Shown here: piece after piece, positions 40,668 through 62,256 of the stretch
Layout of the letters: every line of letters starts with the position of its first letter
Position numbering within the stretch: position 1 is the first letter of the stretch
Assembly (NCBI RefSeq): GCF_023151555.2
Contig: NZ_CP100425.1
Location: 1,178,001 to 1,242,000, forward strand
Direction: 5' to 3'
Origin: Photobacterium sp. CCB-ST2H9
Lineage (GTDB): Bacteria; Pseudomonadota; Gammaproteobacteria; Enterobacterales; Vibrionaceae
Length of the DNA stretch: 64,000 bases
Notes under the pieces: model-generated
Database searches by the model: none
Told to the model about the DNA's origin: nothing
The model's input: the letters and a program-made list of their open reading frames with translations, nothing else
Position numbers and translations under genes: made by a program

Positions 40668-40853
40668 ATGAAACTATCAGTGGTTCATACCGAACATTCT
40701 GAAGAGATAAAAAATACCCCCCATTCAACAGAACATGGCTGGAAACGCTGGTTCTGGATGGCTTACCTGTGGGCGGGCAGTGTGCTGGCTCTGGCCTTAA
40801 TTGCCAGTTTGATCCGGATATTCATGATGGCTGCCGGCATGAAAATGCATTGA
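40668..40853 (+). CDS. Small single-pass membrane protein, DUF2474-like
   Basis: A 61-residue protein with AAAGGAG before the ATG. A His/Glu-rich N-terminus is followed by WKRWFWMAYLWAGSVLALAL and a second half rich in I, M and L ending GMKMH. The pattern W(K/Q)RxxWxxxxWxxSVLALxxxAxLIRxxMxxAGM resembles, from memory, DUF2474 proteins, which usually sit next to the cyanide-insensitive oxidase genes cioAB. Here it lies instead just upstream of moaA, while a cioAB-like pair lies 16 kb away. Likely inner-membrane. Confidence 0.6.
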   Translation: MKLSVVHTEHSEEIKNTPHSTEHGWKRWFWMAYLWAGSVLALALIASLIRIFMMAAGMKMH

Positions 40854-41007: not shown

Positions 41008-42039
41008 GTGACTGCGCCTCATTTATTTCAGACACTGGATCAAATCGTGCCGGTGGCACAGTTTGAAGATACATGGCAGCGCCAATTTTATTATCTGCGC
41101 TTGTCCGTGACGGATGTGTGTAATTTTCGGTGCACTTATTGTTTGCCGGAGGGTTACCGGCCCGGTCACGTCAAGAATAAAAGCTTTCTGACACTGGATG
41201 AAATCCGCCGGGTGACCCGGGCGTTTGCCATGGCCGGGACAGATAAAGTTCGTCTGACCGGCGGCGAACCGTCGTTGCGCCGCGATTTTATCGACATTAT
41301 CGCCGCGGTCCGTGAAAACGAATCTGTCCGGCAACTGGCGATGACGACCAATGGTTACCGGATGGCCCGGGATGTTGCGGCCTGGCGAAAAGCGGGTCTG
41401 ACATCCGTCAACGTCAGCCTCGACAGTCTCGATGCCCGTCAGTTTTATGCGATCACCGGACAGGACAAATTTCATCAGGTCATGGCCGGAATTGATGCAG
41501 CCTTTGATGCCGGGTTTGAAAAGGTCAAAGTGAATACTGTGCTGATGCGGGATATCAATCACCATCAGCTAAAGACATTTTTAGAGTGGATTCGTCTCCG
41601 CCCGATTCAGTTACGCTTTATTGAGCTGATGGAAACCGGGGATGGCGGCGATCTGTTTCGCAGGCACCATATTTCCGGGGACGTCATTCGCCGCCAGCTC
41701 ACCGAGATGGGATGGCAGTTGCAGCCGCGTGGCCGCAGCGATGGCCCGGCACAGGTTTTCTCACATCCGGATTATGCCGGAGAGATCGGCCTGATCATGC
41801 CTTATGACACTAATTTTTGCGCCAACTGCAACCGTCTTCGGGTTTCGGCCGTTGGTCAGCTGCACTTGTGTCTGTTTGGCGATCACGGCGTCCCGCTTCG
41901 CGATTTACTGGCGTCTGATGATCAGTTGCCTGAGTTACAGGCACGTATCGCCGATAGTCTCGGACAGAAAAAACAAACGCACTTTTTACATCAGGGGAAT
42001 ACAGGGATCACGCAGAACTTATCGTTTATCGGTGGCTGA
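41008..42039 (+). CDS. moaA: GTP 3',8-cyclase MoaA (molybdopterin biosynthesis)
   Basis: A 343-residue radical SAM enzyme starting at a GTG with a perfect AAAGGAGG site. The SAM cluster motif is [20 protein letters not shown] and NVSLDSLD are typical MoaA segments. The C-terminal second cluster is [19 protein letters not shown] and the protein ends in the required GG. It performs the first step of molybdenum-cofactor synthesis, converting GTP to 3',8-cH2GTP. First gene of moaA-moaB-moaD-moaE; moaC is missing, so that step must be encoded elsewhere. Confidence 0.95.
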
Positions 42040-42051
42040 CAGGAGGCAACC

Positions 42052-42570
42052 ATGGGCAAAACTGATTCTTCATTCATGCCGGTCAGTGTGGCTGTACTGA
42101 CGGTGTCCGATCACCGGGATGCCCGCAATGACACGTCCGGCGATTATTTCCGGTTGGTCAGTCGTGAAGCCGGACATCAGGTGGTTGAATCGCACATCGT
42201 CCCGGATAACAAATATGCGATTCGTGAAATCGTGTCGCGTTGGATTGCAGGCAATTCGGTGCAAGTGGTGCTGGTGAATGGCGGCACAGGATTCAACGCA
42301 AAAAATTCGACGCCGGAAGCGCTGCAACCATTGTTTGACCGGGACATTGCGGGGTTCGGGGAAGCGTTTCGTCGCCTGTCCTGGGACGACATCGGTACCA
42401 GTACGTTACAGTCCCGCGCGCTGGCTGGCCTGGCGAACGGGACACTGATTTTTGCCGTGCCGGGCTCAACCGGTGCCTGTCGTCTGGCATGGGAACAGCT
42501 GATTGCCCCGCAATTGGATGCCCGGACGCGTCCCTGCCAGTTTGTCCCGCATCTGAAGCCGGTGGAATGA
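42052..42570 (+). CDS. moaB: Molybdopterin adenylyltransferase-like protein MoaB
   Basis: A 172-residue MoaB/MogA-type protein. The nucleotide-binding MPT signature is VNGGTGFNAKNSTPEAL, and GFGEAFRRLSWDDIGTSTLQSRALAG and AVPGSTGACRLAWEQLI complete the family pattern. It starts 12 bp after moaA with AGGAGG upstream. It probably adenylates molybdopterin or acts in metal insertion. Confidence 0.94.
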   Translation: MGKTDSSFMPVSVAVLTVSDHRDARNDTSGDYFRLVSREAGHQVVESHIVPDNKYAIREIVSRWIAGNSVQVVLVNGGTGFNAKNSTPEALQPLFDRDIAGFGEAFRRLSWDDIGTSTLQSRALAGLANGTLIFAVPGSTGACRLAWEQLIAPQLDARTRPCQFVPHLKPVE

Positions 42571-42611: not shown

Positions 42612-42860
42612 ATGATGATTCACGTTTTATTTTTTGCGCAGGTCCGGGAACTGACCGGATGTGATGCGCTGCAGTTGGATGCTCACTACGACAGCGTCGA
42701 ACAACTGAGGGCTGCGCTGGCTGAACGGGGCGATCGCTGGGCGCTGGCGCTGGAGAAAGGCAAGCTGCTGGCGGCAGTAAACCAGACGATGGTACCGTTC
42801 GATCACCCGCTGAAATCCGGGGATGAAGTGGCTTTATTTCCGCCGGTGACCGGAGGCTGA
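42612..42860 (+). CDS. moaD: Molybdopterin synthase small subunit MoaD
   Basis: An 82-residue ubiquitin-like protein ending in the essential VTGG, whose last glycine becomes a thiocarboxylate. Strands MIHVLFFAQVRELTG and DEVALFPPVTGG are typical. TGGAGAG lies before the ATG. It adjoins moaE with 1 bp between stop and start. Confidence 0.95.
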   Translation: MMIHVLFFAQVRELTGCDALQLDAHYDSVEQLRAALAERGDRWALALEKGKLLAAVNQTMVPFDHPLKSGDEVALFPPVTGG

Positions 42861-42861
42861 G

Positions 42862-43332
42862 ATGTTAAACCGAATTCGGGTCTGTCCAGAAGCTTTTGAT
42901 ATCCGGACAGAACATGACTGGCTGGCCGCTGATGATCAGGATGGTGCCGTTGTCACTTTCCTTGGCAAAGTCCGACATCTGAATCTGGGCGATTCAGTCA
43001 GTTCGCTGACGCTGGAACATTACCCCGGCATGACGGAAAAAGCATTGCAGCAGATTGCCGGGCAAGCCCGGCAGCGTTGGGCACTGAACCGTATCACTAT
43101 CGCCCATCGCATTGGAAAGCTCGGCGCAGGCGAAAACATCGTCCTGGTTGGTGTAAGCAGTGCGCATCGCGGGAACGCCTTTGCCGCTGCAGAATTCATC
43201 ATGGATTATCTGAAAACCCGGGCTCCTTTCTGGAAACGGGAATCGACGCCGGCTGGCGATCGCTGGGTTGATGCCCGCGACAGTGATCATCAGGCAGCCG
43301 CACGCTGGACAACGGCCAGCGAATCGCACTGA
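42862..43332 (+). CDS. moaE: Molybdopterin synthase large subunit MoaE
   Basis: A 156-residue MoaE. The LEHYPGMTEKAL and IAHRIGKLGAGENIVLVGVSSAHRGNAFAAAEFIMDYLKTRAPFWKRE stretch contains the active-site lysines. With MoaD it adds two sulfurs to cyclic pyranopterin to form molybdopterin. Last gene of the operon before a strong terminator. Confidence 0.95.
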   Translation: MLNRIRVCPEAFDIRTEHDWLAADDQDGAVVTFLGKVRHLNLGDSVSSLTLEHYPGMTEKALQQIAGQARQRWALNRITIAHRIGKLGAGENIVLVGVSSAHRGNAFAAAEFIMDYLKTRAPFWKRESTPAGDRWVDARDSDHQAAARWTTASESH

Positions 43333-43691: not shown

Positions 43692-46007
43692 ATGGTCAAA
43701 CAACGGAAAGTCCCGGGTGTGAAAAACTATAAAGCACCGGCTGGCGGATGGGGGGCACTGAAAGCCACGGCGATAGCTGTGAGACAGCAGATGGATACCG
43801 TGAAAGCGCCCATCACGCTGCTGCGCACGAATCAGCCGGATGGCTTTGACTGTCCGGGATGCGCATGGCCGGACAAGGAACACAAATCCACCTTTCAGTT
43901 TTGTGAAAACGGCGCCAAAGCCGTGACCTGGGAAGCCACCAACAAACGGGTCACCCCTGAGTATTTCGCCAGTCATACGGTGTCGACCTTACTGACCTAC
44001 AGCGATTTTGAACTGGAAGATCTGGGACGGCTGACCCATCCGCTTGCTTATGATCCCTCGACGGATACGTATCAGCCGGTGGCATGGGAAACCGCTTTTG
44101 AACGCATCGGTGAGATTTTGCGCCAACTGTCGCCACAGCAAGTTGAGTTTTACACCTCTGGCCGGGCCTCGAATGAGGCAGCATATCTCTATCAGCTGTT
44201 TGCCCGGGAATACGGGACCAATAATTTCCCGGACTGTTCCAATATGTGCCATGAACCGACGAGTGTCGGTCTGCCGCGCTCTATCGGTATCGGGAAGGGC
44301 ACGGTGTCACTGGCTGATTTCGATGATTGTGAGCTGATTATTGCCATCGGACATAATCCCGGGACCAATCACCCGAGAATGATGGGAACCCTGCATGAGG
44401 CTTCGCGCCGGGGGGTACCGATCATTGTTTTCAACCCGCTCAGAGAACGGGCGCTGGAGCGTTTTGCCGACCCCCAGAATATGGTGGAAATGGCAACGTA
44501 CCGTTCAACGCGGATTGCATCGTCTTACTTTCAGGTGCGGGCCGGAGGCGATGCGGCTGCGCTGAAAGGTATCATGAAAGCCTTGCTGGAGATGGAAGCC
44601 GATTCTGGGGATGTGCTGGATAAAGACTTTATTCAGCAGCACACCAATGGGTTTGATGCGCTGGCTGAGGATCTGAAGACGACAGCATGGACAGAAATAG
44701 AAACGATCAGCGGACTTGCCCGTGACGATTTAGAAATGGTTGCAGCGACTTACGCCAAATCCAATGCGACCATTGTCAGTTACGGCATGGGAGTGACACA
44801 ACATAATACGGGGACTGCCAATGTCCGGCTGATTTGTGATCTGCTGATGCTTCGGGGCAATTTTGGCAAACCGGGCGCTGGGATTTGCCCGCTGCGCGGA
44901 CACTCCAATGTGCAGGGGAACCGGACGGTGGGGATTACGGAAAAGCCTTCTGCTGAATTCTTACAACGCCTTGAACACACCTTTGGATTTAAGCCGCCAA
45001 CGGCACAGGGTCATGACGCAGTACAGGCCATGCAGGCTATCGTGGCGCAATCTTCGAAAGCTTTGATTTGTCTGGGAGGAAACCTGATCGTTGCCTTACC
45101 GGATCCGGCGCAATGTTTTCCCGCCATGGGCAACATGGAACTCTGTGTGTATATCGGGACCAAACTGAACCGGACCCACTTGCTGGTGGGGAAAGAAACT
45201 TTTCTGTTTCCCTGTCTGGGCCGGACTGAGCTGGATGAACAGGAAAGCGGCCCGCAGTCTGTCACGGTGGAAGATTCGATGTCGATGGTTCATGCATCTG
45301 CGGGCAAGCTGAAGCCAGCCTCGGAACAGCTTCGCTCTGAAATCGCGATTGTTGCGGGGATGGCTCAGGCAACGCTGCCGGACAGCAAAGTCCCGTGGCA
45401 GTCGCTGACTGCGGACTATAACCAGATCCGTGATCTCATTGAACAAACCGTGCCGGGGTTTGAGAACTTCAATGAACGAATCCGTCAACCGGGCGGTTTC
45501 AGGCTGCCATTGCCGCCGACCGAGCGCATCTGGAACACAGCGTCAGGCAAAGCAGAATTTTATGTCTTTGCGGGATTGCTGGAAGACAAACAGGTCAAAA
45601 CAAGCGATGTCCTGCGGCTCATCACCATCCGAAGCCATGATCAGTACAACACTACAATTTACTCACTGGATGACCGGTACCGTGGGGTATTCGGCCGCCG
45701 CGATGTACTTTTCATGCACCCGGACGATCTGGCCAGTCGCGGGCTGTCACATGGCGATACCGTTGATCTTGAAACCATCACACAGGGTGAACCGATGGTT
45801 TATCAGGGGCTGACTGCCATCGAATATCAAATTGCTGTCGGATCGGTTGCTGCGTATTACCCGGAAGCCAACAGACTGGTGCCATTGGACTATATCGACG
45901 AAGAGTGCGGCACGCCGTCGTACAAGTCTGTGCCGGTCAGAGTGCGGAAAGCTGAGTCCTCATCATCGAGCACGTGCCAGCGGAGCGGAGGCAAAGCTGG
46001 CACGTGA
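43692..46007 (+). CDS. FdhF/YdeP-family molybdopterin oxidoreductase, copy 1
   Basis: A 771-residue molybdopterin-bis-guanine-dinucleotide enzyme like E. coli YdeP. The N-terminus holds DCPGCAW and FCENGAKAV, where classical formate dehydrogenases have a four-cysteine [4Fe-4S] site. NFPDCSNMCHEPTSVGL places Cys-His at the position of the catalytic selenocysteine-histidine of FdhF. NPGTNHPRM, GKPGAGICPLRGHSNVQGNRTVGI and the C-terminal MopB_CT region (RSHDQYNTTIYSLDDRYRGVFG) bind the cofactor. It is soluble, with no signal peptide, so the cytoplasm is likely. YdeP is linked to acid resistance in E. coli but its substrate is unknown. Confidence 0.92.
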   Translation: MVKQRKVPGVKNYKAPAGGWGALKATAIAVRQQMDTVKAPITLLRTNQPDGFDCPGCAWPDKEHKSTFQFCENGAKAVTWEATNKRVTPEYFASHTVSTLLTYSDFELEDLGRLTHPLAYDPSTDTYQPVAWETAFERIGEILRQLSPQQVEFYTSGRASNEAAYLYQLFAREYGTNNFPDCSNMCHEPTSVGLPRSIGIGKGTVSLADFDDCELIIAIGHNPGTNHPRMMGTLHEASRRGVPIIVFNPLRERALERFADPQNMVEMATYRSTRIASSYFQVRAGGDAAALKGIMKALLEMEADSGDVLDKDFIQQHTNGFDALAEDLKTTAWTEIETISGLARDDLEMVAATYAKSNATIVSYGMGVTQHNTGTANVRLICDLLMLRGNFGKPGAGICPLRGHSNVQGNRTVGITEKPSAEFLQRLEHTFGFKPPTAQGHDAVQAMQAIVAQSSKALICLGGNLIVALPDPAQCFPAMGNMELCVYIGTKLNRTHLLVGKETFLFPCLGRTELDEQESGPQSVTVEDSMSMVHASAGKLKPASEQLRSEIAIVAGMAQATLPDSKVPWQSLTADYNQIRDLIEQTVPGFENFNERIRQPGGFRLPLPPTERIWNTASGKAEFYVFAGLLEDKQVKTSDVLRLITIRSHDQYNTTIYSLDDRYRGVFGRRDVLFMHPDDLASRGLSHGDTVDLETITQGEPMVYQGLTAIEYQIAVGSVAAYYPEANRLVPLDYIDEECGTPSYKSVPVRVRKAESSSSSTCQRSGGKAGT

Positions 46008-46034: not shown

Positions 46035-47846
46035 TCAGTAATACCGGCGGAACATGACATTGAACTGAGTTTCGTGCAGTTCCGCCATATCGGCATACTG
46101 GGCACCCAGATCGATAGCGGTGTCTTCAAGACCCAGATAAGTCAGGGTCGCCGAGGCCTTATGCTTAAAATTGCTGTCTGCGTACTGGTTCCAGACGGTA
46201 TTGGCTGAAAGCGAGATTTTCACATCTTGCCTGAAATAGCTGAACAGACCGGTGTCTATGGCAAAGGCACCCCAGACTTTGTCTGAACTGGCCGAAAGCT
46301 CCGTATCAACCGTGGCATAGACCTGAACGGCGTTATTGACCGTATGGCTCAGGCCGAGACCGCCGGACACAAACAATCGCTTGTTATCCCGTTCGGCAAA
46401 GTCGGTTCCTCTGTCCCACTGTACGGAGAATTTGCCGGACCATCCGCCGAACAAGGGGTCATAAGGGATATAGCTGTTGATGGCGTATAAGGTGAAATTA
46501 TCCAGACGGAGCGCATCCCGGCTGGCGCTGACGGAGATTTTCATCAGTTCCAGCGAGGATTCACTGAAAGCATTCCGGTTGTCATCTTTGAGCGTGTGTG
46601 ATGCCGGTAACCAGATGGCCGTCAGTTCCGGATCATTCTGTTGATCCCAGCGGGTTCCGATTTGCCACTGAGCATCTTTTTGACGCTTGAGTGGGTTTTT
46701 AAAGTCACTCAGGTCAACGGCCAGGGATTCGAACTGGTCATCATAGCGGGCCAGCGCTCGGGCATTGTCGGTATAAGATGCCTCAGAAATTTCTTCGGTT
46801 TCCAGCAGATACTGATTCAGCGCGCTGGAGAATTCCCAGGTCAGAAATTGCTGCTCGACCGGGCTGTCTTCGTCGATGGCGTTTTTTTCCAGCGCACCGG
46901 CGCTTAATTGTTTCACGAGCGATTGCTTTACCGCATCGGTCTGAGAGGCACCATAGGCGCGCAGCCGCCAGTTCAGGGAAGGGGTAATGCTGGCTTGTTC
47001 GATCATCTGGCTCTGGTTCGCGAGCTGAATTAAATCCAGCGGGCTCAGCCAGTCCCGGCGATGTGCCATCAAATCAGGATTGCTGATAGCAATCAGATTC
47101 AGCGTGATCGACGCACAATTCTGGTCGTGGAAGTAGTAATCAATTTTGGTGTCTTTCAGTTCCCACAAGTGCAGCTTAATGAGTTGTTTGTCTTTTTCAG
47201 ACAGATTGAGCTGGTACTCGTAGACATTCCTGCCTTCAATGCCTTTATAGTGCTCCAGACTTTCCCGGTAAGGGGAGACCATGAAATAACCTTCTTTTCC
47301 GACGACAAGGGAATCGAACATGATCTTGGGCAGATTAAATCCGGCAACTTCCGTAAAGAAAGAGACGGCATGGCCCGGGTCCTGCGTGTTCTCGCTAAGC
47401 TTGATAAAAGCGTGCCCCATAAAGCTGCTCGGACTCAGCAGGTTTTCTGAAGCGTAGACCAGGCTGATTGAATTTGCGGAAACGGCATCAAGATAGGTTT
47501 GTAATTCACCACATGGAGAAAAATCCGGCTGTGGGATATACGAGTAACTGTCGGCCAGCAACTGCGCCCGTGCCGGAAAACGGCAAATATAATCTTGTGC
47601 GTGTTCCGGCTGTGTCAGCTGAGCGATATTTGCATCGATCTCGGCCTCAATATCCGTCGGGTTGGATGAGAAATAAAACCCGGGATCCTGAATATTCAGT
47701 TGCTCGTCACTGACATGCAGGAGCGTGGCAAAAGTTGAGGAGGTGTTCTGAACCTCATGTGACTTTGACACATGTGACGGTGTTTTTGCCATCACAGGCA
47801 AACTCAGAGGAATACAAAAAAAAGAAGCCCAAAGGCTTCTTATCAT
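46035..47846 (-). CDS. DUF4105-domain envelope protein
   Basis: About 603 residues from the ATG at 47846. The first 20 residues read as a signal peptide (short basic start, hydrophobic core, ...PVMA|KTP). The first half has the DUF4105 papain-like pattern: SSFMGHAFIKL with the histidine, and YYFHDQNCASITLNL with the cysteine. The second half is rich in beta strands with W/Y residues and ends MFRRYY, like an outer-membrane-type barrel or repeat region. Bacteroidetes relatives (Lnb) acylate lipoproteins; the role in Vibrionaceae is not known to me. It follows a small lipoprotein gene on the same strand, and that gene's terminator hairpin overlaps the signal-peptide codons. Alternative ATGs: 47867 and 47915. 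Confidence 0.8.
   Translation of the reverse strand: MIRSLWASFFCIPLSLPVMAKTPSHVSKSHEVQNTSSTFATLLHVSDEQLNIQDPGFYFSSNPTDIEAEIDANIAQLTQPEHAQDYICRFPARAQLLADSYSYIPQPDFSPCGELQTYLDAVSANSISLVYASENLLSPSSFMGHAFIKLSENTQDPGHAVSFFTEVAGFNLPKIMFDSLVVGKEGYFMVSPYRESLEHYKGIEGRNVYEYQLNLSEKDKQLIKLHLWELKDTKIDYYFHDQNCASITLNLIAISNPDLMAHRRDWLSPLDLIQLANQSQMIEQASITPSLNWRLRAYGASQTDAVKQSLVKQLSAGALEKNAIDEDSPVEQQFLTWEFSSALNQYLLETEEISEASYTDNARALARYDDQFESLAVDLSDFKNPLKRQKDAQWQIGTRWDQQNDPELTAIWLPASHTLKDDNRNAFSESSLELMKISVSASRDALRLDNFTLYAINSYIPYDPLFGGWSGKFSVQWDRGTDFAERDNKRLFVSGGLGLSHTVNNAVQVYATVDTELSASSDKVWGAFAIDTGLFSYFRQDVKISLSANTVWNQYADSNFKHKASATLTYLGLEDTAIDLGAQYADMAELHETQFNVMFRRYY
47816..47841 (-). terminator. Terminator of the small lipoprotein gene, inside the next gene's 5' end
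   Basis: On the minus strand an 8-bp stem AAGAAGCC / GGCTTCTT with a TTTG loop (47841-47822) runs directly into eight Ts (47823-47816). This is a classic terminator form. It lies in the codons of the predicted signal peptide of the DUF4105 protein. Confidence 0.78.
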
Positions 47847-47875
47847 TGAAGACTGAAACAACTGCATTGAACAGA

Positions 47876-48238
47876 TTATTGGCAGTTGATTTGCAGCGTA
47901 TCCTGGTAACGCCACATTTTTTCAGAAGCGAAGTCTGTGGTTGAACCGAATGCACCGCCAGACAGAATGTTTACGAAGAATGTTGGCTCAACTTCTTTGT
48001 TCAGTGCCACTTGCTGCTTACAACCTTCAGAAGTCACGAGCAGTGTTTTGTCTTTGTTTTCTTTCTTCACAGTGATGATGCCTGGTGCAGTTTGCTCAAT
48101 GCCATCAACTTCAACAGTGAATTTCTTATCAGAAGAAGAAACAACGTTAATGCGCTGGTTTTCATCAGTCAGAATGGTAGAACAACCTACAGCAGAAATC
48201 GCTGCACCAGCAACAATCAGAGTTTTAATTACGTTCAT
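47876..48238 (-). CDS. Small lipoprotein of unknown function
   Basis: A 120-residue lipoprotein with signal and lipobox ending AVGC. The mature part (QRINVVSSSDKKFTVEVDG and GIITVKKENKDKTLLVTSEG) resembles short beta-sandwich (PEGA-like) lipoproteins, often annotated only as hypothetical. It is probably periplasmic, anchored to a membrane. It is upstream of the DUF4105 gene on the same strand. Confidence 0.78.
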   Translation of the reverse strand: MNVIKTLIVAGAAISAVGCSTILTDENQRINVVSSSDKKFTVEVDGIEQTAPGIITVKKENKDKTLLVTSEGCKQQVALNKEVEPTFFVNILSGGAFGSTTDFASEKMWRYQDTLQINCQ

Positions 48239-50020: not shown

Positions 50021-50863
50021 TTATGCTTTCTTCCCGCTATACAACCTCGGCGCACTCCGGTGCGGTAAATGGATGAGATTCAGGTTGTTGTGCCGCGCCC
50101 AGCGGACGGTCATTGCCGTAGGGGCGGAGAGGCTGACGAGTGTGCCGATTTTGGCACGGACGGCCTTCTGGATAAGCTCCAGGCTGCACCGGCTGGTGAT
50201 CACGGCGAAGCCGGATTTCGGGTTGATGCGGGCAGCAGCCATCGCACCAATCAGTTTGTCCAGCGCGTTATGACGGCCGATGTCTTCCCGGCAGAGCTGA
50301 ATGTTGCCTGTGGCATCGACATATAACGCGGCGTGCAGCGCGCCACTGCTGCGGGCGACTTCCTGCACTTCACTGATCCGCGACCGCAGATTGTGCAGCA
50401 GGCTGGCTTTGGGGGGCGGCACCGGTGTGAGCGGTGTTAAAGGCGGCAGTGCCTGTTCAATCGCTTCCACACCACATATCCCGCAACCACTGGTACCTGC
50501 CAGCTGACGACGGTGATTTTTCAGCGACCAGAAAGCCCGGTTGGAAATCTCAACTTCCGCATGATGCGAATCGCACCCGGCAGTCAGGGTAATGTCGTAA
50601 ATTTCTCCGACTGAGCTGACAATGTCGTTGCTCAGGCTGAATCCTTTGACGAAATCTTCAATGTTTCCTGGGGTGACCATCATTACGGCCTGACTGATGC
50701 CGTTATAGCTGATCGACAACGCCGTTTCGCTGGCTAAGACGGCATGGTCTGTAATGGTTGCCTGATCATCATCGAGCAGCTCAATATAAGTAAATGTGTC
50801 AGGTGAAGGCGGGGCCGCATTCACATCTGAAATGTCATACGCTTTTTTTTCAGGGTCATTCAT
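50021..50863 (-). CDS. fdhD: FdhD sulfurtransferase for molybdoenzyme maturation
   Basis: A 280-residue FdhD. The redox-active cysteine pair lies in TSGCGICGVEAIEQ. VEGFSLSND-type segments (VKGFSLSNDIVSS) and the C-terminal GRHNALDKLIGAM and SRCSLELIQKAVRAKIG are diagnostic. It passes sulfur from IscS to the molybdenum cofactor so that FdhF-type enzymes become active. It lies between the two YdeP-like genes, which supports these as its clients. Confidence 0.95.
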   Translation of the reverse strand: MNDPEKKAYDISDVNAAPPSPDTFTYIELLDDDQATITDHAVLASETALSISYNGISQAVMMVTPGNIEDFVKGFSLSNDIVSSVGEIYDITLTAGCDSHHAEVEISNRAFWSLKNHRRQLAGTSGCGICGVEAIEQALPPLTPLTPVPPPKASLLHNLRSRISEVQEVARSSGALHAALYVDATGNIQLCREDIGRHNALDKLIGAMAAARINPKSGFAVITSRCSLELIQKAVRAKIGTLVSLSAPTAMTVRWARHNNLNLIHLPHRSAPRLYSGKKA

Positions 50864-50971
50864 GATGCTGCCTGTTACCGGAAAATCATGGGCTGGAATC
50901 GGATACAGACAGGCTACGCAACTGCCTGTCTGTTGTCCAATGGCTTGTTTTGATGGCCTGATAAGGCGGGT

Positions 50972-51868
50972 CTATGGCGTTTTACTAGCTTGAAAAATCC
51001 CTTTCGCTTCAGCAAAACATTTGTCGGCTAGTGCGGACCGGGGCTCGCTGCGGCGCATGACCAGTCCGAGCGGCGAATGAATGACGGCATCGGTGATGGG
51101 CACGATGTTCAGGTGTTCATTCATCGCCTCAATCCCGCTTCTCAGGGGCATGATGGCACAGCAAATTCCCGCGTTCACCGCCTGAATCAGCTGAAAGGTC
51201 GAATCACTTTCCAGAATGGTGTGCGGGTCGATGTCGTGACTGCGGAAGCTGAGATCAATGGACTGGCGGTAGTGCATCCCTTTGGTCAGCAGCCCCAGCG
51301 GTTGCCGGCCAACGGCTTCCCAGCTGAGATCAGCATCGTCGAACTGAAAGTGACGGACGTCATGCAGCAGGCCCATGCTGGTAGCGGTAAGCCGGATGAC
51401 ATCGAAAAACTGGGTATCGACCTGATCGAGATAGCAAAAGCCCAGATCGAGCTGGTTGCGGTTGAGATGATCGATGATCTGTTCTGAGGTTAATGAACTG
51501 AGCTGGAAATGCAGCTCGGGATAACGTTTGGACAAGGGCTTCAGCAGTTGCATGGGATTGAGGCTTGCCAGCGGAACCATCCCAAGACGCAGACTGCCGA
51601 CCAGCTGGCCGCGGCAACTGGCCGCTTCGGCCTGTAAGCCGTCATGCGCGGCTAACAGGGTTCGAGCCCAGGCCAGGATGCGTTCGCCTTCTTCGGTAAA
51701 CCCTTCGAATCGCTGTCCGCGGGTGATCAGAACCAGATCCAGCTCGTCCTCCAGATTGCGGATCCGCATCGAGAGGGTGGGCTGAGTAATGTGGCAGAGG
51801 GCCGCCGCCTGACCGAAATGCCGGGTTTGATCCAGCGCGATCAGGTACTTCAGTTGTTTGATATCCAT
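50972..51868 (-). CDS. LysR-family transcriptional regulator
   Basis: A 298-residue LysR protein with an OxyR-like N-terminus (MDIKQLKYLIALDQTRHFGQAAALCHITQPTLSMRIRNLEDELDLVL). It lies between mobA and fdhD on the same strand. Its position suggests control of the molybdoenzyme genes. The effector is unknown. Confidence 0.92.
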   Translation of the reverse strand: MDIKQLKYLIALDQTRHFGQAAALCHITQPTLSMRIRNLEDELDLVLITRGQRFEGFTEEGERILAWARTLLAAHDGLQAEAASCRGQLVGSLRLGMVPLASLNPMQLLKPLSKRYPELHFQLSSLTSEQIIDHLNRNQLDLGFCYLDQVDTQFFDVIRLTATSMGLLHDVRHFQFDDADLSWEAVGRQPLGLLTKGMHYRQSIDLSFRSHDIDPHTILESDSTFQLIQAVNAGICCAIMPLRSGIEAMNEHLNIVPITDAVIHSPLGLVMRRSEPRSALADKCFAEAKGIFQASKTP

Positions 51869-51973: not shown

Positions 51974-52579
51974 CTAATCATGGTGCAAATTGAGTAATTG
52001 TTGCGGAGTATTGACGTTCTGAAGCCGTGGATCGTTCTCATCACAATCGATGGCAATCACATCATGCTGTTTCAGAATCGTCATCAGGCTGCGTTCACCT
52101 GACTGCCAGGCCGCTTTCAGCTCAGGCAGTAAAGCCTTTGGGATCAAGCTGAACATGGGCTGCCACTGCCGGCCCTGACGGACCATCGCCGGACGAGGCG
52201 TTTGTGCAGATGCTGCGGCCAGCATCTGATCAATCAGGGTTTGGTTCAGCAGGGGCGCATCGCAGGGAAACAACAGCAGCCAGTCATATCTGGCTTCCGT
52301 CAGCCCCTTCAGGATGCCGGCCAGCGGGCCGGGAAATCCGGCGACGTCGTCAGAAAGTGTCCGGTCGCAGTAAGCCGCGTAGGTTTGCGCGTTCCGGTTG
52401 CAGGAAATCAGCAGGTCATCTGTCAGCGGCCTGACAACGTCATGCAGACTGGCAATCAGCGGTCGGCCACGAAACGGAACCAGCCCTTTGTCTTGTCCTC
52501 CCATACGCGAGCCTTGCCCGCCAGCGAGCAGGAGTACAGAAAAGGAAACTGGATTCTGGTTCATTTTGTTTACAGCCAT
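51974..52579 (-). CDS. mobA: Molybdenum cofactor guanylyltransferase MobA
   Basis: A 201-residue nucleotidyltransferase. LLLAGGQGSRMGGQDKGLVPFRGRPLI is the GTP-binding signature of MobA. FPCDAPLL is the metal-binding aspartate motif. It attaches GMP to molybdopterin to form the bis-MGD cofactor required by FdhF/YdeP enzymes. AGGA lies before the ATG at 52579. Confidence 0.94.
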   Translation of the reverse strand: MAVNKMNQNPVSFSVLLLAGGQGSRMGGQDKGLVPFRGRPLIASLHDVVRPLTDDLLISCNRNAQTYAAYCDRTLSDDVAGFPGPLAGILKGLTEARYDWLLLFPCDAPLLNQTLIDQMLAAASAQTPRPAMVRQGRQWQPMFSLIPKALLPELKAAWQSGERSLMTILKQHDVIAIDCDENDPRLQNVNTPQQLLNLHHD

Positions 52580-52610
52580 TTCAACTATCCTGCTCAAAAA
52601 TATAACGTTT

Positions 52611-52738
52611 ATGCTTCATAGTCCAATAAACGCAATTGATGAATTGATAGATAAGATTTATCACAGCAGTGGTCGTGTGCTGATTGATCTGGATCGTCTG
52701 TCGCTGCATATGCGGGCTGTAGGTCCATCTGCAGCGGC
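52611..52738 (+). pseudogene. Orphan N-terminal coding fragment
   Basis: An ATG at 52611 opens a plausible 42-codon coding stretch (MLHSPINAIDELIDKIYHSS, then GRVLIDLDRLSLHMRAVGPS). It runs directly into the 3' end of the opposite bestrophin gene. It looks like the first part of a gene whose remainder was lost. I do not recognise the family. Confidence 0.35.
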
Positions 52739-53638
52739 TCAGTTCAGCACATACTCCACGGGCTCTAAGGGCGCTGGCAAATCAGGGTGCCCCAGCGCAT
52801 CCAGCAGGTCACGTTCAATGGTGCGGACAAGGGCATCGGTCGGCAGGTCATTTTCATCCCGGCCAAAGGGGTCTTCCAGCTCGTCACCGATGGCATCCAG
52901 TCCGAAGAAGGTATAACTGACGATTGTCGTGAATACCGGCGCCAACCAGCCCAGAGGCTCGGCCATCGCGAAGGGCAGCAGGAGACAGAAGATATAAATA
53001 GTCCGGTGCAGCAACAGGGTATAGGGAAACGGCAGGGGTGTGCCCTTGATCCGCTCGCAGGTTGCCTGTGCTTCCGACAGTCCGTGCAGGCATTTCTCCA
53101 GCGTGATGTAACGCCAGTCACTGATGGCATTGCATGCTGCCAGTTCAGAACATTGACGGCTGATGTTTCTCAAAATGCCGTCACTGATGTTCTGGCCGTA
53201 GGTCCCGGGGATGTTTGACACCCAAGGGCCTGCGGCATGCAGTTCATTTTCACCGCGCAGGCGGGCATTCAGGGCATGGGCAAATCCGCACAGTTCTCTG
53301 AGCATGGCTTCGCGTCTGGCCGGATCGGGGATGGCAATGCTGGCTCTGGCAAAAGAACGCATTTCAATCATCACTTTGCCCCAGGCCTGACGGCCTTCCC
53401 ACCAGCGGCCATAACAGGCGTTATTCCGGAAACTCATAAAGATGGACAGGGAAATCCCGAGCAACGTAAAGGGCGTTGCATTCACGCGGGAAAATAGCGC
53501 CGGATAAAGCACCTCGATGAAGACAATCATTGATGCCAGCGCCGTGACCATCAGGCTGCGGAGCGCAATGCGTTTGGCAATGGATCCTTTTAATGAAAAA
53601 AGGATATCCGATAATTTCGGTTTGGGATGGACGATCAT
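52739..53638 (-). CDS. Bestrophin-like (YneE family) chloride-channel protein
   Basis: A 299-residue membrane protein of the bestrophin/UPF0187 type. MIVHPKPKLSDILFSLKGSI matches the YneE-like start. FTLLGISLSIFMSFRNNACYGRWWEGRQAWG is the family core, and the later PLGWLAPVFTTIVSYTFFGLDAIGDELEDPFG is the conserved aspartate/proline region. It forms a pentameric anion channel in characterised homologues. The ATG at 53638 fits family length; a frame from 53692 is longer. Confidence 0.88.
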   Translation of the reverse strand: MIVHPKPKLSDILFSLKGSIAKRIALRSLMVTALASMIVFIEVLYPALFSRVNATPFTLLGISLSIFMSFRNNACYGRWWEGRQAWGKVMIEMRSFARASIAIPDPARREAMLRELCGFAHALNARLRGENELHAAGPWVSNIPGTYGQNISDGILRNISRQCSELAACNAISDWRYITLEKCLHGLSEAQATCERIKGTPLPFPYTLLLHRTIYIFCLLLPFAMAEPLGWLAPVFTTIVSYTFFGLDAIGDELEDPFGRDENDLPTDALVRTIERDLLDALGHPDLPAPLEPVEYVLN

Positions 53639-54217
53639 GGGATACCTGAACTCTTTTGGGAAAGCCTGTTTTGAATCAGTTTCTGTTTGCACAGAAATTA
53701 TGTTTTATATTATTTATGGTTGATGGTTCGGCAGCGTTTTGTGATGAGTTATATTTCAGCTGGCTGTTGATTAAAGCGTATTCAGCCCGTTTTTAATGGT
53801 CAAATAGATTGTTTTGATTGGATGATAAATACGATTGATGAAGATGATTTATCGCAGGGGATATTCATTTGTTGCGGGGAATAAAAAATCAGGTGGATTT
53901 ATTTTCTGCTTGCGTGATGTTTGCTTTTATATATCTTAATGGGCTGAGATGAAAGCACTTTCTGATATTTTACCGCCCTGATAGATACAATTTATTACCT
54001 CTTCAATAATATCAATTAGACGCCACGCTTAAACCGCCATAATCTTTGATTCAGATCATTTTAAATGCAGACCTTATTCCTGGTCCCGCATGAAATTCAT
54101 CTGCAAAAAATGAAACGGATGTCAGTTTGAATCAGAGAACGCTGAATTTCTGATCATGCGCCGTGACTTTCATGAACGCATTCGCAACCGCTGACACCTA
54201 ATCTGAGGCTTACTTTT
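53639..54217. promoter_or_regulatory. Regulatory region of the YdeP-oxidase operon
   Basis: About 580 bp without a gene, AT-rich. TTGAT-TCAG-ATCAT (54046-54059) matches the FNR consensus TTGAT-N4-ATCAA at nine of ten positions. It lies about 160 bp before the YdeP-like start, so oxygen-dependent control of the following operon is possible. Confidence 0.45.
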
Positions 54218-56542
54218 ATGAACCACAAAGAAAATATCAGAGATTACAACGGCCCGGCTGCAGGCTGGGGAGCGTTGAAAAGTGTCACCAAAAGCTGGCT
54301 GGGCAGTGAGAATGCGTTTCGAAATCTCAGGGCAATGCTGAAAACAAACCAGAATGGCGGCTTTGACTGTCCGGGATGCGCCTGGGGAGAATCGCCGGAA
54401 GACGGGTTAGTGAAGTTCTGTGAAAACGGCGCCAAAGCGGTGAACTGGGAAGCAAGCGGGCGTCTGGTTGATCCGAATTTCTTTGCGCAATACAGCGTCT
54501 CTGAGCTGCTGAAACAAAGTGACTACTGGCTGGAATATCAGGGGCGGCTGTCTCACCCGATGCGTTACAACGCGGAAAGCGATCATTATGAGCCCATCAG
54601 TTGGCAAGATGCTTTCGCACTGATTGCGAGACACCTGAACAACCTTGAATCGCCGGATCAGGCGGAGTTCTACACCTCAGGCCGTGCCAGCAACGAAGCC
54701 GCTTATCTGTATCAGCTGTTTGTCCGTGCCTTCGGCACCAATAACTTTCCGGATTGCTCGAACATGTGCCATGAGGCCAGCGGGATTGGGATGTCCGAGA
54801 CCATTGGGGTCGGCAAAGGCACGGTGGTGTTTAAAGATCTGGAGCTGGCTGATGCCATCTTCGTGATCGGCCAGAACCCGGGCACTAATCACCCGCGGAT
54901 GCTGGAGCCATTGCGGGAAGCGGTGAAACGCGGCGCGCAGGTGGTCTGTTTTAACCCGCTGAAAGAGCGTGGTCTGGAACGTTTTCAGCACCCGCAGCAC
55001 CCGTTTGAAATGCTGAGCAATGGCTCGGAACCCACCAACACCGCTTATTTCCGCCCGGCACTCGGCGGCGACATGGCTGCGATGCGCGGCATGGCGAAGT
55101 TTTTACTGAATTGGGAGCGTGAGGCGCAGGAAAAAGGTGAACCGGCCGTGTTCGACCATGACTTCATTGAACGTCACACCACAGGACTGGATCAGTATCT
55201 GGCCGAAGTCGATGCCACCAGCTGGGATCACATTGTTGAGCAATCGGGTCTGACGCTAGCGGAAATTGAAATGGCAGCGCGCATGTACCGCCGTGCCGAA
55301 AGGGTCGTGATGTGCTGGGCGATGGGTCTGACGCAACACCGCCACTCGGTGCCGACCATTCAGGAGGTCGTCAATCTGCAACTGCTGCGCGGTAATGTCG
55401 GGAAACCGGGGGCAGGACTGTCACCGGTGCGCGGGCACAGTAATGTGCAGGGTGACCGTACGATGGGGATTGATGAACAGCCGCCGGAATCCCTGCTGAA
55501 TGCACTGGAAGACCGGTTCAGATTCCGGGCACCCCGGATGCACGGTCATAACGCGGTTCTGGCCATTCAGGCGATGGAAGAAAAGCGTGCCAAAGTCTTT
55601 GTCGGTCTGGGCGGTAACTTTGCACAGGCAACTCCGGATACGCCGCGCACCCATGCAGCGCTGCGCAACTGTGACCTGACCGTGCAAATCTCAACCAAGC
55701 TCAACCGGGGTCATCTGGTGACCGGGCGGGAAGCGCTGATCCTGCCGTGTCTGGGCCGGACTGAAGTGGATCTGCAGGCAGAAGGCCCGCAGGGGGTTAC
55801 CGTGGAAGACACGTTCAGTATGGTTCATATCTCCTATGGTCAGCTGAAACCCCGTTCACCTCAGCTGCGTTCTGAGCCGGCCATTATTGCAGGGATGGCG
55901 AAAGCGACGTTGGGCGATCATCCGGTGAACTGGGACTGGGTCGTGGCGGATTACAGCCGGATTCGGGACCTGATTGCCGATACGATTCCGGGTTTTGAGA
56001 ACTTCAACGAAAAGCTGAAACATCCGGGCGGTTTTCATCTGGGGAATGCGGCCGCACAGCGGCAATGGCATACCCCGAGCGGAAAGGCGCAGTTCACACC
56101 TTGTGAACTGCCCGGACAGCTGGTGAATGAAACGGTGCTGGCGCGTGGCGAAAAGCCGGATCTGATCCTGCAAACCATGCGCTCGCATGACCAGTACAAC
56201 ACTACCCTCTATGGTCTGGATGACCGTTACCGTGGCGTCTTCGGCATCCGGGAGGTGGTGTTTGCCAATGAAGCGGATATCCGTCGCCTCGGGTTCGAAC
56301 CGGGCGAAAAAGTGGATCTGGTCTCTTTGTGGGAAGACGGAAAAGAGCGTCGGGTCTCCGGATTTATGCTGGTCGCCTACGACATTCCGTCCGGTCAGGC
56401 AGCCTCTTATTACCCGGAAACCAACCCGCTGGTGCCGCTGGAAAGCTACGGTGACCGGACCTACACCCCGACATCGAAATTTGTGGCGATCCGACTGGAA
56501 AAAGCACAGGCAGACAACCGGATTCCGTCGTCTGCGGTATGA
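54218..56542 (+). CDS. FdhF/YdeP-family molybdopterin oxidoreductase, copy 2
   Basis: A 774-residue paralogue of the gene at 43692, sharing nearly every motif: DCPGCAW, FCENGAKAVNWEASG, FYTSGRASNEAAYLYQLF, NFPDCSNMCHEASG with Cys-His at the active-site position, GIGMSETIGVGKGTV, NPGTNHPRM, GKPGAGLSPVRGHSNVQGDRTMGI, and the C-terminal RSHDQYNTTLYGLDDRYRGVFG. It lacks a signal peptide, so a cytoplasmic bis-MGD enzyme. GAGG precedes the ATG. The cyanide-insensitive oxidase genes follow 86 bp downstream with no terminator, implying one operon. Confidence 0.92.
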   Translation: MNHKENIRDYNGPAAGWGALKSVTKSWLGSENAFRNLRAMLKTNQNGGFDCPGCAWGESPEDGLVKFCENGAKAVNWEASGRLVDPNFFAQYSVSELLKQSDYWLEYQGRLSHPMRYNAESDHYEPISWQDAFALIARHLNNLESPDQAEFYTSGRASNEAAYLYQLFVRAFGTNNFPDCSNMCHEASGIGMSETIGVGKGTVVFKDLELADAIFVIGQNPGTNHPRMLEPLREAVKRGAQVVCFNPLKERGLERFQHPQHPFEMLSNGSEPTNTAYFRPALGGDMAAMRGMAKFLLNWEREAQEKGEPAVFDHDFIERHTTGLDQYLAEVDATSWDHIVEQSGLTLAEIEMAARMYRRAERVVMCWAMGLTQHRHSVPTIQEVVNLQLLRGNVGKPGAGLSPVRGHSNVQGDRTMGIDEQPPESLLNALEDRFRFRAPRMHGHNAVLAIQAMEEKRAKVFVGLGGNFAQATPDTPRTHAALRNCDLTVQISTKLNRGHLVTGREALILPCLGRTEVDLQAEGPQGVTVEDTFSMVHISYGQLKPRSPQLRSEPAIIAGMAKATLGDHPVNWDWVVADYSRIRDLIADTIPGFENFNEKLKHPGGFHLGNAAAQRQWHTPSGKAQFTPCELPGQLVNETVLARGEKPDLILQTMRSHDQYNTTLYGLDDRYRGVFGIREVVFANEADIRRLGFEPGEKVDLVSLWEDGKERRVSGFMLVAYDIPSGQAASYYPETNPLVPLESYGDRTYTPTSKFVAIRLEKAQADNRIPSSAV

Positions 56543-56628
56543 ATCAATTGTGATTCGCTGAACGTTTCAAACGGCAGCCGGCAGCGGCTGACCTGATCAG
56601 ATAAGTTGTTATCGAAAAGGATAGTTGT

Positions 56629-58008
56629 ATGTTTCATCTGGAAGCATTAGATCTCGCGCGGATTCAGTTCGCGTTTACGGTCTCTTTTCATATTATCTTT
56701 CCTGCCATCACCATCGGCTTAGCCAGCTACCTGGCTGTGCTGGAATGGCGCTGGCTGAAAACCGGAAATCAGGTTTACAAAAATCTGTATTACTTCTGGT
56801 CGAAAATCTTTGCCGTCAATTTTGGCATGGGCGTGGTATCCGGGCTCGTGATGTCTTACGAGTTTGGCACCAACTGGGCGCGTTTTTCCGATTTCGCGGG
56901 CAGCGTGACCGGACCGTTATTAACCTATGAGGTACTGACGGCTTTCTTCCTTGAGGCTGGTTTCCTGGGCGTGATGCTGTTTGGCTGGGAACGTGTCAGC
57001 CGCAGGATGCACTTTTTCGCAACCGTGATGGTGGCGATCGGGACGCTGATCTCGACCTTCTGGATTCTGTCTTCGAACAGCTGGATGCAGACGCCGCAGG
57101 GTATTGAAATTGTGGACGGCCGCATTGTGCCGCTCGACTGGTTCAAAATCGTGTTTAACCCGTCTTTCCCGTACCGTCTGGTGCACATGGCGCTGGCTGC
57201 TTTCCTGTCGACTGCCTTTTTCGTGGCGGCATCCGCAGCATGGCACTTACTGCGCGGACGCAATACCGCTGAAATCCGGAAAATGCTGTCGATGGCGATG
57301 TGGATGATTCTGCTGGTTGCGCCGATTCAGGCTTTTGTCGGCGATGCCCATGGGCTGAATACGCTGGAACACCAGCCCGCTAAAATCGCTGCCATTGAAG
57401 GTCACTGGGACAACAAACCGGGTGAGGCCACCCCGCTGATTCTGTTTGGGATTCCGGATATGGATGCGGAGAAGACCCGCTACAGCCTGGAAATTCCTTA
57501 TTTAGGCAGCCTGATTCTGACCCACAGTCTGGACAAGCAGATTCCGGCACTGAAAAGCTTTCCGAAAGAAGACCGTCCGAATTCAACCCTTGTGTTCTGG
57601 AGCTTTCGCATCATGGCGGGTCTGGGCATGCTGATGCTGCTTTCCAGCCTGGTGGCCCTGGTGCTGCGTCGCAAAGGAACACTGTATCAGAATAAAACCT
57701 TCCTGCGTTTCATGCTGATGATGGGCCCGTCGGGGCTGATTGCGCTGCTGGCTGGGTGGTTCACAACCGAAGTCGGCCGTCAGCCCTGGGTCGTTTACGG
57801 CATGATGCGGACGCATGACGCGGTCTCGAATCATGACGTGGTCCAGATGACCATCTCGCTGGCTGTGTTTGTGGTGGTGTACTTTTCAGTGTTCACCGTC
57901 GGGATTGGCTACATGATGCGGCTCGTCAACAAAGGCCCGAAAGGCTTATACGGACTTCAGCCACAAGAAGGGCTGCCATCGCTGAAACCTCAGTCGGTCA
58001 CGGAATAA
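56629..58008 (+). CDS. cioA: Cytochrome bd-type quinol oxidase subunit I (CIO/CioA type)
   Basis: A 459-residue CydA-family subunit with about nine helices. SFHIIFPAITIG holds the haem-ligand histidine and YRLVHMALAAF the second. LTYEVLTAFFLEAGFLG and GWFTTEVGRQPWVVYGMMRT are hallmark motifs. The quinol loop is short and the protein is smaller than E. coli CydA (522), placing it in the cyanide-insensitive (CIO) branch. It oxidises quinol in the inner membrane and passes electrons to O2. AAAGGA precedes the ATG. Confidence 0.93.
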   Translation: MFHLEALDLARIQFAFTVSFHIIFPAITIGLASYLAVLEWRWLKTGNQVYKNLYYFWSKIFAVNFGMGVVSGLVMSYEFGTNWARFSDFAGSVTGPLLTYEVLTAFFLEAGFLGVMLFGWERVSRRMHFFATVMVAIGTLISTFWILSSNSWMQTPQGIEIVDGRIVPLDWFKIVFNPSFPYRLVHMALAAFLSTAFFVAASAAWHLLRGRNTAEIRKMLSMAMWMILLVAPIQAFVGDAHGLNTLEHQPAKIAAIEGHWDNKPGEATPLILFGIPDMDAEKTRYSLEIPYLGSLILTHSLDKQIPALKSFPKEDRPNSTLVFWSFRIMAGLGMLMLLSSLVALVLRRKGTLYQNKTFLRFMLMMGPSGLIALLAGWFTTEVGRQPWVVYGMMRTHDAVSNHDVVQMTISLAVFVVVYFSVFTVGIGYMMRLVNKGPKGLYGLQPQEGLPSLKPQSVTE

Positions 58009-58020
58009 GGAAGTGGAATC

Positions 58021-59037
58021 ATGAATATACAAGGTATCGATCTGTCGATTATCTGGAGCGTTCTCATTGCCTTCGGCATCATGATGTACGTGATTCTGGA
58101 TGGTTTCGATTTAGGACTGGGCATCCTGTTTCCGTTTATTTCCGATTCGGAAGAGCGGGATGTCATGATGAATACCGTCGCACCGGTTTGGGACGGGAAT
58201 GAAACCTGGATTGTTTTTGGTGCGGCGGCAATGTTCGGGGCATTTCCGCTCGCGTATTCACTCATTTTTGAGGCGCTCTATCTGCCGCTGATTTTTGTGC
58301 TGGCCGGGCTGATCCTCCGCGGCGTTGCCTTTGAATTTCGCTTTAAAGCGGAACCAGAGAAGCGTCATATCTGGGATAAAGCTTTTATTGCCGGGTCTGT
58401 GCTGGCGACCTTTTTCCAGGGCGTGGCACTGGGCACGTATGTCTCAGGGATTCCGGTGGTGGACCGCCAGTTCGCGGGTGGCGCATTTGACTGGTTCGCA
58501 CCGTTCCCGCTCTTCTGTGGTGTGGGGCTGGTCCTGACCTACGCGTTGCTGGGCAGCACCTGGCTGCTGATTAAAACGGAAGGGATGCTGGAAGCGCGGA
58601 TGCGTCATTACAGTCGTCCGCTGGCTTATCTGCTGGCATGGGTGATCGTACTCACTTGCGGATGGACGGCATTCATTCATAAAGATATCGCACACCGCTG
58701 GTTCCATGGTTCACACTGGCTGCTGACCGGCGCCATCGCCGTGCTGGCCGTGATCGCCTTGTATGCACTGCAAAAGAGCCTGCGAGAACGTCACTCTCAT
58801 AAGCCGTTTATCTCGACACTGGGATTGGTCTTTCTGGGGTATGCGGGTCTGGTGCTGAGTGTTTGGCCTAATATTGTGCCGCCGTCGATTGATTTCTGGG
58901 AAGCGGCATCGCCAACGACCAGTCAGTTGTTTGCATTAATAGGCACCTTACTGATTTTACCGGTGATCCTGATGTACACCTTGTGGGGATATCATGTCTT
59001 TCGGGGTAAGGTGAAACCGGGGGATGCATATCACTGA
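58021..59037 (+). CDS. cioB: Cytochrome bd-type quinol oxidase subunit II (CioB type)
   Basis: A 338-residue CydB-family subunit with about eight helices. VILDGFDLGLGILFPF, WDGNETWIVFGAAAMFGAFPLAYS and RGVAFEFRFK are the family signatures. It is translated from the cioA mRNA, 12 bp after its stop, with AAGGAAG. It completes the quinol oxidase. The small CydX/DUF2474 partner expected after cioB is not present here; a strong terminator follows. Confidence 0.94.
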   Translation: MNIQGIDLSIIWSVLIAFGIMMYVILDGFDLGLGILFPFISDSEERDVMMNTVAPVWDGNETWIVFGAAAMFGAFPLAYSLIFEALYLPLIFVLAGLILRGVAFEFRFKAEPEKRHIWDKAFIAGSVLATFFQGVALGTYVSGIPVVDRQFAGGAFDWFAPFPLFCGVGLVLTYALLGSTWLLIKTEGMLEARMRHYSRPLAYLLAWVIVLTCGWTAFIHKDIAHRWFHGSHWLLTGAIAVLAVIALYALQKSLRERHSHKPFISTLGLVFLGYAGLVLSVWPNIVPPSIDFWEAASPTTSQLFALIGTLLILPVILMYTLWGYHVFRGKVKPGDAYH

Positions 59038-59066
59038 TTCCAGCTCATCACAGTCGGAATAACGAG

Positions 59067-59097
59067 AAACGGGCACCGCAGATTGCGTGCCCGTTTT
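59067..59097 (+). terminator. Terminator after cioB
   Basis: Perfect 10-bp stem AAACGGGCAC / GTGCCCGTTT with a 10-nt loop; the stem itself ends in Ts. Confidence 0.88.

Positions 59098-59717: not shown

Positions 59718-62256
<2,539 letters not shown>

Follow-up and report, generated by a model that had tools for sequence, protein, structure and literature searches.

The closest described counterparts of the locus treated here are those of Pseudomonas putida, which carries PP_4596 (FdhF/YdeP family), PP_4597 (moaA) and PP_4600 (moaB) as well as PP_0256 with PP_0257 (fdhD) (PMC10308882). PP_4596, PP_0256-0257, PP_4597, PP_4600 and cioAB are all raised by formate in this organism, and deletion of PP_4596 or of PP_0256-0257 lowers its formate tolerance, with complementation reported for PP_0256-0257 (PMC10308882). 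Formate oxidation has also already been suggested for YdeP of Escherichia coli (PMC3720670). Here we describe a locus of Photobacterium sp. CCB-ST2H9 (genome of 5.17 Mb in three contigs) in which a gene of the same family, ydeP1, is followed directly by cioA and cioB, the genes of a bd-type quinol oxidase of the cyanide-insensitive type (CIO). The locus lies in a stretch of 64,000 nucleotides (contig NZ_CP100425.1, positions 1,178,001 to 1,242,000, forward strand), hereafter the window, and positions are given in the numbering of the window unless preceded by a contig label (C1, C2). We consider it likely that ydeP1-cioAB belongs to an inducible formate-oxidation module, serving detoxification and respiration, with a dedicated quinol oxidase. 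A preliminary description of the window had proposed a coordinated respiratory or detoxification module linked to fdhD, mobA, the moa genes and a DUF2474 gene, and the analyses below support that proposal.

The probable ydeP1-cioA-cioB operon and its first enzyme

The gene ydeP1 (54218-56542, plus strand; 774 amino acids) encodes a molybdenum-bis-pyranopterin guanine dinucleotide (Mo-bisPGD) oxidoreductase of the FdhF/YdeP family and probable formate dehydrogenase (FDH), as judged from TIGR01701 and the aligned active-site residues. It is followed after 86 bp by cioA (56629-58008, plus; 459 amino acids) for subunit I of a bd-type quinol oxidase with a short Q-loop (Cyt_bd_oxida_I, PF01654, 573.5 bits), and after a further 12 bp by cioB (58021-59037, plus; 338 amino acids) for subunit II (Cyt_bd_oxida_II, PF02322, 326.5 bits; TIGR00203). 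Shine-Dalgarno-like purine runs precede all three starts, no plus-strand terminator was found in the 86-bp gap by the pattern scan (z-score of the gap fold -1.3), and a terminator-like hairpin with TTTT at the end of its 3' arm follows cioB (59066-59097, plus; -22.8 kcal/mol, z -4.0), which was found by folding and is absent from the terminator pattern scan. From this arrangement the three genes look like one operon giving one transcript, and open reading frames, scans and folding reproduced the coordinates, gaps, ribosome sites, terminator-free gap and closing hairpin given in the preliminary description. A search with PADLOC for anti-phage defence returned no match among YdeP1, CioA and CioB. 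Convergent to cioB lies katG, encoding a catalase-peroxidase (59718-61928); a katG beside the linked locus is retained in genomes G152 and G064 and was absent from the flanking sequences examined at linked Vibrio and Pseudomonas loci.

YdeP1 scores 958.8 bits with TIGR01701 (FdhF/YdeP; cut-off 582.15) and 90.4 bits with TIGR01553 for the FdnG/FdoG-type catalytic subunit, below its cut-off of 814.2, which no protein of the genome exceeded. The active-site alignment comprised 124 rows, namely the two YdeP proteins of the window, 121 relatives from fetched loci with at least 600 aligned residues, and a segment of E. coli FDH-H. Every one of the 123 YdeP rows has a Cys, a His and the Arg of an RGH motif aligned to positions 140, 141 and 333 of FDH-H (NMCHE and PVRGHS in YdeP1), and an N-terminal C-x2-C...C-E-N-G pattern is conserved as well. 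The combination C/UH...RGH has been defined as class III of FDH active sites (PMC8808070). A reading in which YdeP1 would have no FDH arginine, with the Gln of TQHRHSVPTIQ as its counterpart, was dropped, as Arg333 of FDH-H aligns to the conserved RGH. The closest named relative of YdeP1 is found in Photobacterium galatheae (98%); Zobellella, Marinobacter, Gallaecimonas and Shewanella have relatives at 81-85%.

Among Pseudomonas proteins, YdeP1 shares 82-85% identity with those of the PP_4596 type as against about 74% with the fdhD-ydeP type. Loci like that of P. putida have a divergent moaA next to ydeP1, then a bestrophin gene, with moaB and lysR farther out. Because of this gene order and these identities YdeP1 was assigned to the PP_4596 type, in a comparison drawn from proteins other than the KT2440 sequence itself. 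The active-site signature, the presence of fdhD and what has been published on the counterpart in P. putida together point to formate as the substrate, which the preliminary description had listed as unknown, and YdeP1 is thus a probable formate dehydrogenase. The genome carries pflB and, on that basis, can be expected to make formate.

Since an acid-resistance role has been reported for E. coli YdeP (PMC7384014, PMC3720670), YdeP1 might alternatively act like that protein, with formate being incidental. Its similarity to the PRK09939 profile of E. coli YdeP (830.5 bits) fits such a role; the score, however, falls below the equivalog cut-off of 1473, and if E. coli YdeP itself oxidises formate, as suggested in PMC3720670, this explanation would merge with that of a formate-oxidation module. 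We regard an acid-resistance module as improbable. Apart from the acid role published for YdeP of E. coli, nothing specific emerged for the acid or oxidative stress contemplated in the preliminary description.

Recurrence of the gene pair and lineage of the oxidase

A broad scan of genome contigs was performed and the best 80 loci were examined. Five of these carry cioAB directly 3' of ydeP1, all within the ten rows of at least 77% identity, and the remaining 70 have no such pair, including one (L034) with merely 214 bp of downstream sequence. The surveys that follow covered Vibrionaceae and Pseudomonas, and the recurrence described here refers to these two groups. The 296 Vibrionaceae genomes contain 37 places with a YdeP1-like protein (identity of 72% or more), and cioAB comes next at six of them. 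Among 298 Pseudomonas genomes there are 81 ydeP1 places of at least 76% identity, 41 with cioA (E <= 1e-241) within 173 bp, and two more cioA genes follow a ydeP1 truncated where the contig stops. The cioA matches at this threshold number 47, of which four are unlinked to ydeP1. Counted by genome, 44 Pseudomonas genomes have both genes, 32 ydeP1 only, one cioA only and 221 neither. In 369 genomes across the class a CioA at E <= 1e-238 was found in the genome of the window only, although this thin sample missed known Pseudomonas cases. A lack of co-occurring YdeP-like and cioAB genes in other genomes, named in the preliminary description as a refutation, is contradicted by the presence of the pair in 43 Pseudomonas genomes (of 298) and 6 Vibrionaceae genomes (of 296).

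Aligned with AppC, CioA has nothing that corresponds to residues 318-380, which make up the long Q-loop, and the haem-ligand residues are retained. The conserved residues are those we take to be His19, His186, Met393, Glu99, Glu107, Glu445 and Arg448 in E. coli CydA numbering. On these features CioAB is classified as a cyanide-insensitive quinol oxidase type.

The CioA tree was constructed from 61 CioA rows and CydA, with identical rows entered once and five partial rows (including that of genome G393) removed; rows were those available as loci, i.e., 30 of the 47 Pseudomonas matches, the rows of the ordinary-cioA check and the fetched regions. The ydeP-linked CioA proteins, that of the window included, form a single clade of 40 rows (39 linked, one free; support 99/98), outside which the other 21 unlinked CioA fall. 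Six Vibrionaceae rows nest within the linked clade, next to a Pseudomonas subclade. A rapid tree of YdeP proteins, thinned to 97 rows of which 20 are linked, requires six changes of the linked label and is compatible with one origin followed by several losses. Distances between YdeP1 proteins and between linked CioA proteins are correlated (r 0.90 over 20 pairs, reached in none of 5000 permutations), to which a common species history contributes. When 11 linked genomes were examined for an ordinary cioA, 10 proved to have one in addition. This second gene and the shared inheritance of ydeP1 and a single CioA clade suggest that the linked CioA is a specialised isoform.

A shared operator and the genes that carry it

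Alignment of ydeP1 upstream regions revealed a conserved block of 44 nt. A word consensus derived from eight Vibrionaceae rows, with an exact spacing of 33 nt required, is present in 60 of 67 other upstream regions of at least 76% identity and in 9 of 38 below that value, and in none of 525 shuffles. A matrix was then built from 66 sites (Vibrio 22, Pseudomonas 44), excluding all rows of the genus of the window. Scanning the window with this matrix gave five sites, each on the strand of the gene it precedes: before ydeP1-cioAB (53979-54022, plus; 43.4 bits; 196 bp to the start codon), fdhD (50934-50977, minus; 15.3 bits; 71 bp), the bestrophin gene (53798-53841, minus; 13.0 bits; 106 bp), DUF2474-moaABDE (40527-40570, plus; 8.1 bits; 98 bp) and mobA-lysR (52620-52663, minus; 7.6 bits; 23 bp to the mobA start codon). 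The next-best score in the window was -8.7, and a site of at least 4 bits appeared in 5 of 200 dinucleotide-shuffled versions of the window (best 15.2). The site before DUF2474 was found by the matrix alone, the search with the consensus words being not significant there (420 of 500 shuffles as good), and a genome-wide pattern search from the ydeP1 site with at most three mismatches returned that site only. The five sites imply that the FDH, maturation and oxidase genes have a promoter element in common.

The matrix was further used to score 143 fetched loci (2,605 kb) at a cut of 7.5 bits, which was chosen after the scores in the window were known. Of 182 distinct matches, 177 lie at most 450 bp before a module gene on the same strand and five were unassigned; 45 loci had no match. 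The 177 precede ydeP (64), lysR (33), fdhD (32), moaA (19), moaB (17), bestrophin (6), mobA (3), cioA (2) and DUF2474 (1) genes; the ydeP matches are circular, as this class supplied the matrix, and those of the other gene classes are not. The Pseudomonas genes bearing sites (ydeP1, moaA, moaB and fdhD-ydeP) are the genes induced by formate in P. putida. The operator is retained by two linked-clade cioA genes that have no ydeP1 (35.3 bits each), in one case with a bestrophin remnant beside the operator, and 21 ordinary cioA loci had no site even at 0 bits. We infer from this distribution that the linked cioAB belongs to an FDH and cofactor regulon, outside which ordinary cioAB stands. A chance adjacency of unrelated genes could be argued from the roughly half of close ydeP1 loci without cioAB; it is already contradicted by the survey, with recurrence in two families, a single CioA clade, correlated distances and an operator retained by cioA copies that lost ydeP1, and its probability is negligible.

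An FNR-like box (54046-54059, plus) with 9 of the 10 consensus bases of TTGAT-N4-ATCAA also precedes ydeP1, and a perfect box is present in 30 of 37 Vibrionaceae ydeP1 upstream regions, which suggests oxygen control of ydeP1 in this family. Control by FNR/ANR as a common feature found no support in Pseudomonas, since 45 close upstream regions from outside the Vibrionaceae contained no perfect box and one with a single mismatch. The low-oxygen use considered in the preliminary description finds support in Vibrionaceae only.

The neighbouring genes named in the preliminary description were all confirmed by profiles. On the minus strand lie fdhD for an FDH sulfurtransferase (50021-50863; TIGR00129, 149.3 bits, cut-off 140.9), a LysR-family regulator gene (50972-51868; PF00126/PF03466), mobA for a molybdenum cofactor guanylyltransferase (51974-52597; TIGR02665, 209.8 bits, cut-off 151.85) and, in addition, the gene of a bestrophin-family anion channel (52739-53692; PF25539, 334.7 bits). 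The LysR protein is probably the reader of the operator, considering its co-location and the distribution of the sites. On the plus strand, a DUF2474 small-protein gene (40668-40853; profile match at 40740-40844, C1:1218740-1218844) is the first gene ahead of moaA (41008-42039; profile match), moaB (42052-42570; PF00994), moaD (42612-42860; ThiS family) and moaE (42862-43332; profile match), followed by ydeP2 for a second FdhF/YdeP-family protein (43692-46007; TIGR01701, 970.9 bits), for which the matrix scan of the window found no operator site of its own. A third FdhF/YdeP gene is located on the second contig (C2:809487-811769), without an operator site. Between ydeP2 and fdhD lies a gene for an Lnb_N/DUF7840/DUF7843 protein (46035-47915), not obviously a member of the module. 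In other genomes, lysR and fdhD adjoin ydeP1 at 34 of 36 non-window Vibrionaceae places (four loci of lower identity being outside this count), and a bestrophin gene accompanies ydeP1 at 20 of the 21 close Pseudomonas loci that have long flanks and at 6 of 36 Vibrionaceae loci, several with an operator site.

The genome has two DUF2474 genes over the cut-off, neither of them 3' of the linked cioB of the window. A DUF2474 gene does occur 3' of the ordinary cioB here and 3' of the linked cioB in Pseudomonas protegens, and in genome G064 one adjoins moaA, moaD and moaE. By its position, the DUF2474 gene ahead of moaABDE provides a second physical link from CIO to the genes for the FDH cofactor. 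The ordinary cioAB, followed by its DUF2474 gene, is found at C1:1243597-1246261, 1.6-4.3 kb past the end of the window, and carries no operator site.

The CIO type of the oxidase would also suit a module in which CIO respires under cyanide and YdeP1 clears the formate released by cyanide hydrolysis, a hydrolysis to formate combined with an FDH having been discussed for Pseudomonas pseudoalcaligenes (PMC6368324). None of the 20 scanned window proteins is, however, a nitrilase, cyanide hydratase or formamidase (5 of the 20 have no Pfam match), and the operator marks molybdenum-cofactor and FDH genes, which makes a cyanide module very unlikely.

Proposed function and comparison with known systems

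In the proposed mechanism the LysR-type protein (probably 50972-51868) would sense formate or a related signal and act at the five operator sites; formate as the inducer is inferred. Expression of moaABDE, mobA and fdhD would rise, so that cofactor is made and sulfurated, the bestrophin would be co-expressed, perhaps as a path for anions or bicarbonate, and ydeP1-cioAB would be co-expressed as well. In the cytoplasm YdeP1 would oxidise formate to CO2. The electrons would reach the quinone pool directly or via a carrier, and the CIO isoform would transfer them on to O2 from quinol, so that haem-copper oxidases open to inhibition by formate would be spared. For the route from YdeP1 through quinone to CIO the chances appear about even. 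More tentative, and in our view rather short of even, is a formate:oxygen chain in the strict sense, in which the soluble FDH reduces quinone at or near the co-inherited CIO isoform within a formate-sensing LysR regulon that includes cofactor supply and DUF2474.

Several observations weigh against a formate-oxidation module with its own oxidase. No electron-transfer subunit was recognised among the annotated neighbours of YdeP1. The authors of the P. putida study favour NAD-linked oxidation, with the cofactor unexplored, and link the rise of cioAB to pH (PMC10308882); as P. putida cioAB is not beside PP_4596 and ordinary cioA loci have no operator, the induction there would have another cause. 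In Campylobacter jejuni both oxidases, and thus also CioAB, may be subject to inhibition by formate (PMC5238407). The genome of the window holds two further YdeP-family genes, plus FDH-like open reading frames below the cut-off at C1:1611444 and C2:1134923, so that YdeP1 is not its sole candidate FDH. By coordinates, 40 of the 81 Pseudomonas ydeP1 places have no adjacent cioAB (28 were checked by tblastn, with no cioA near, and 12 rest on the E threshold alone), and the same holds for 31 of the 37 Vibrionaceae places. With cioAB missing beside about half of the close ydeP1 genes, the enzyme would be able to work without a dedicated CIO, the oxidase being an add-on. Finally, the four weaker operator sites of the window (7.6-15.3 bits) are about within the reach of a single shuffle; what carries weight is how many they are and where they lie.

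A rival explanation is parallel protection, in which YdeP1 uses NAD or a soluble carrier and cioAB provides an oxidase that still works under formate, with no dedicated route between them. The NAD-linked oxidation inferred for P. putida and the close ydeP1 loci without cioAB speak for it, as does the binding and inhibition of cytochrome c oxidase by formate (cited in PMC5238407). The single CioA clade co-inherited with ydeP1, together with an ordinary cioA in 10 of 11 genomes, suggests by contrast a specialised isoform, and the possible formate sensitivity of CIO in C. jejuni would count against this explanation too. Overall parallel protection appears possible but rather unlikely, and we keep the formate-oxidation module with a dedicated oxidase as the preferred explanation. 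A quinol oxidase co-inherited in operon and regulon would give a testable answer to the question of the cofactor of the soluble FdhF/YdeP enzymes of P. putida, whose role with formate is established (PMC10308882), and the operator offers a handle for locating the remaining regulon members. If true, the module would account for the two CIO sets kept by some bacteria and would have a bearing on the formate tolerance of hosts in C1 biotechnology such as P. putida.

The enzymes themselves are of known kinds; in the open-access literature searched, as far as its text was available, no description of a ydeP1-cioAB operon or of the 44-nt operator was found. E. coli YdeP shares the TIGR01701 family with YdeP1, but YdeP1 scores below the PRK09939 equivalog cut-off, and the E. 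coli protein has been studied in acid resistance under EvgA. Fdh4A of Methylobacterium extorquens, known here by description, is a family relative reported to support formate oxidation (cited in PMC10308882, PMC3720670), but is coupled to Fdh4B, which according to the authors has no counterpart in P. putida (PMC10308882). ForCE of Bacillus subtilis resembles the proposed system in being a cytosolic Mo-bisPGD FDH with menaquinone as its electron acceptor; ForC, however, combines C-Q/RGH with an Fe-S extension at the N-terminus and a DUF1641 partner (PMC8808070), whereas YdeP1 shows C-H/RGH and no partner of that kind was seen. Ordinary CioAB has both subunits, the short Q-loop and the haem ligands in common with the oxidase of the window, whose CioA falls in a separate clade, with no DUF2474 gene directly 3' of cioB and with the FDH operator. 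Closest are PP_4596 and PP_0256 of P. putida, which belong to the same family, have moaA, moaB and fdhD adjacent or co-induced and show a published formate phenotype (PMC10308882); in P. putida, however, cioAB (PP_4650-4651) is located elsewhere, whereas ydeP1 is followed by a distinct cioAB in the window and in 43 of the 298 Pseudomonas genomes sampled.

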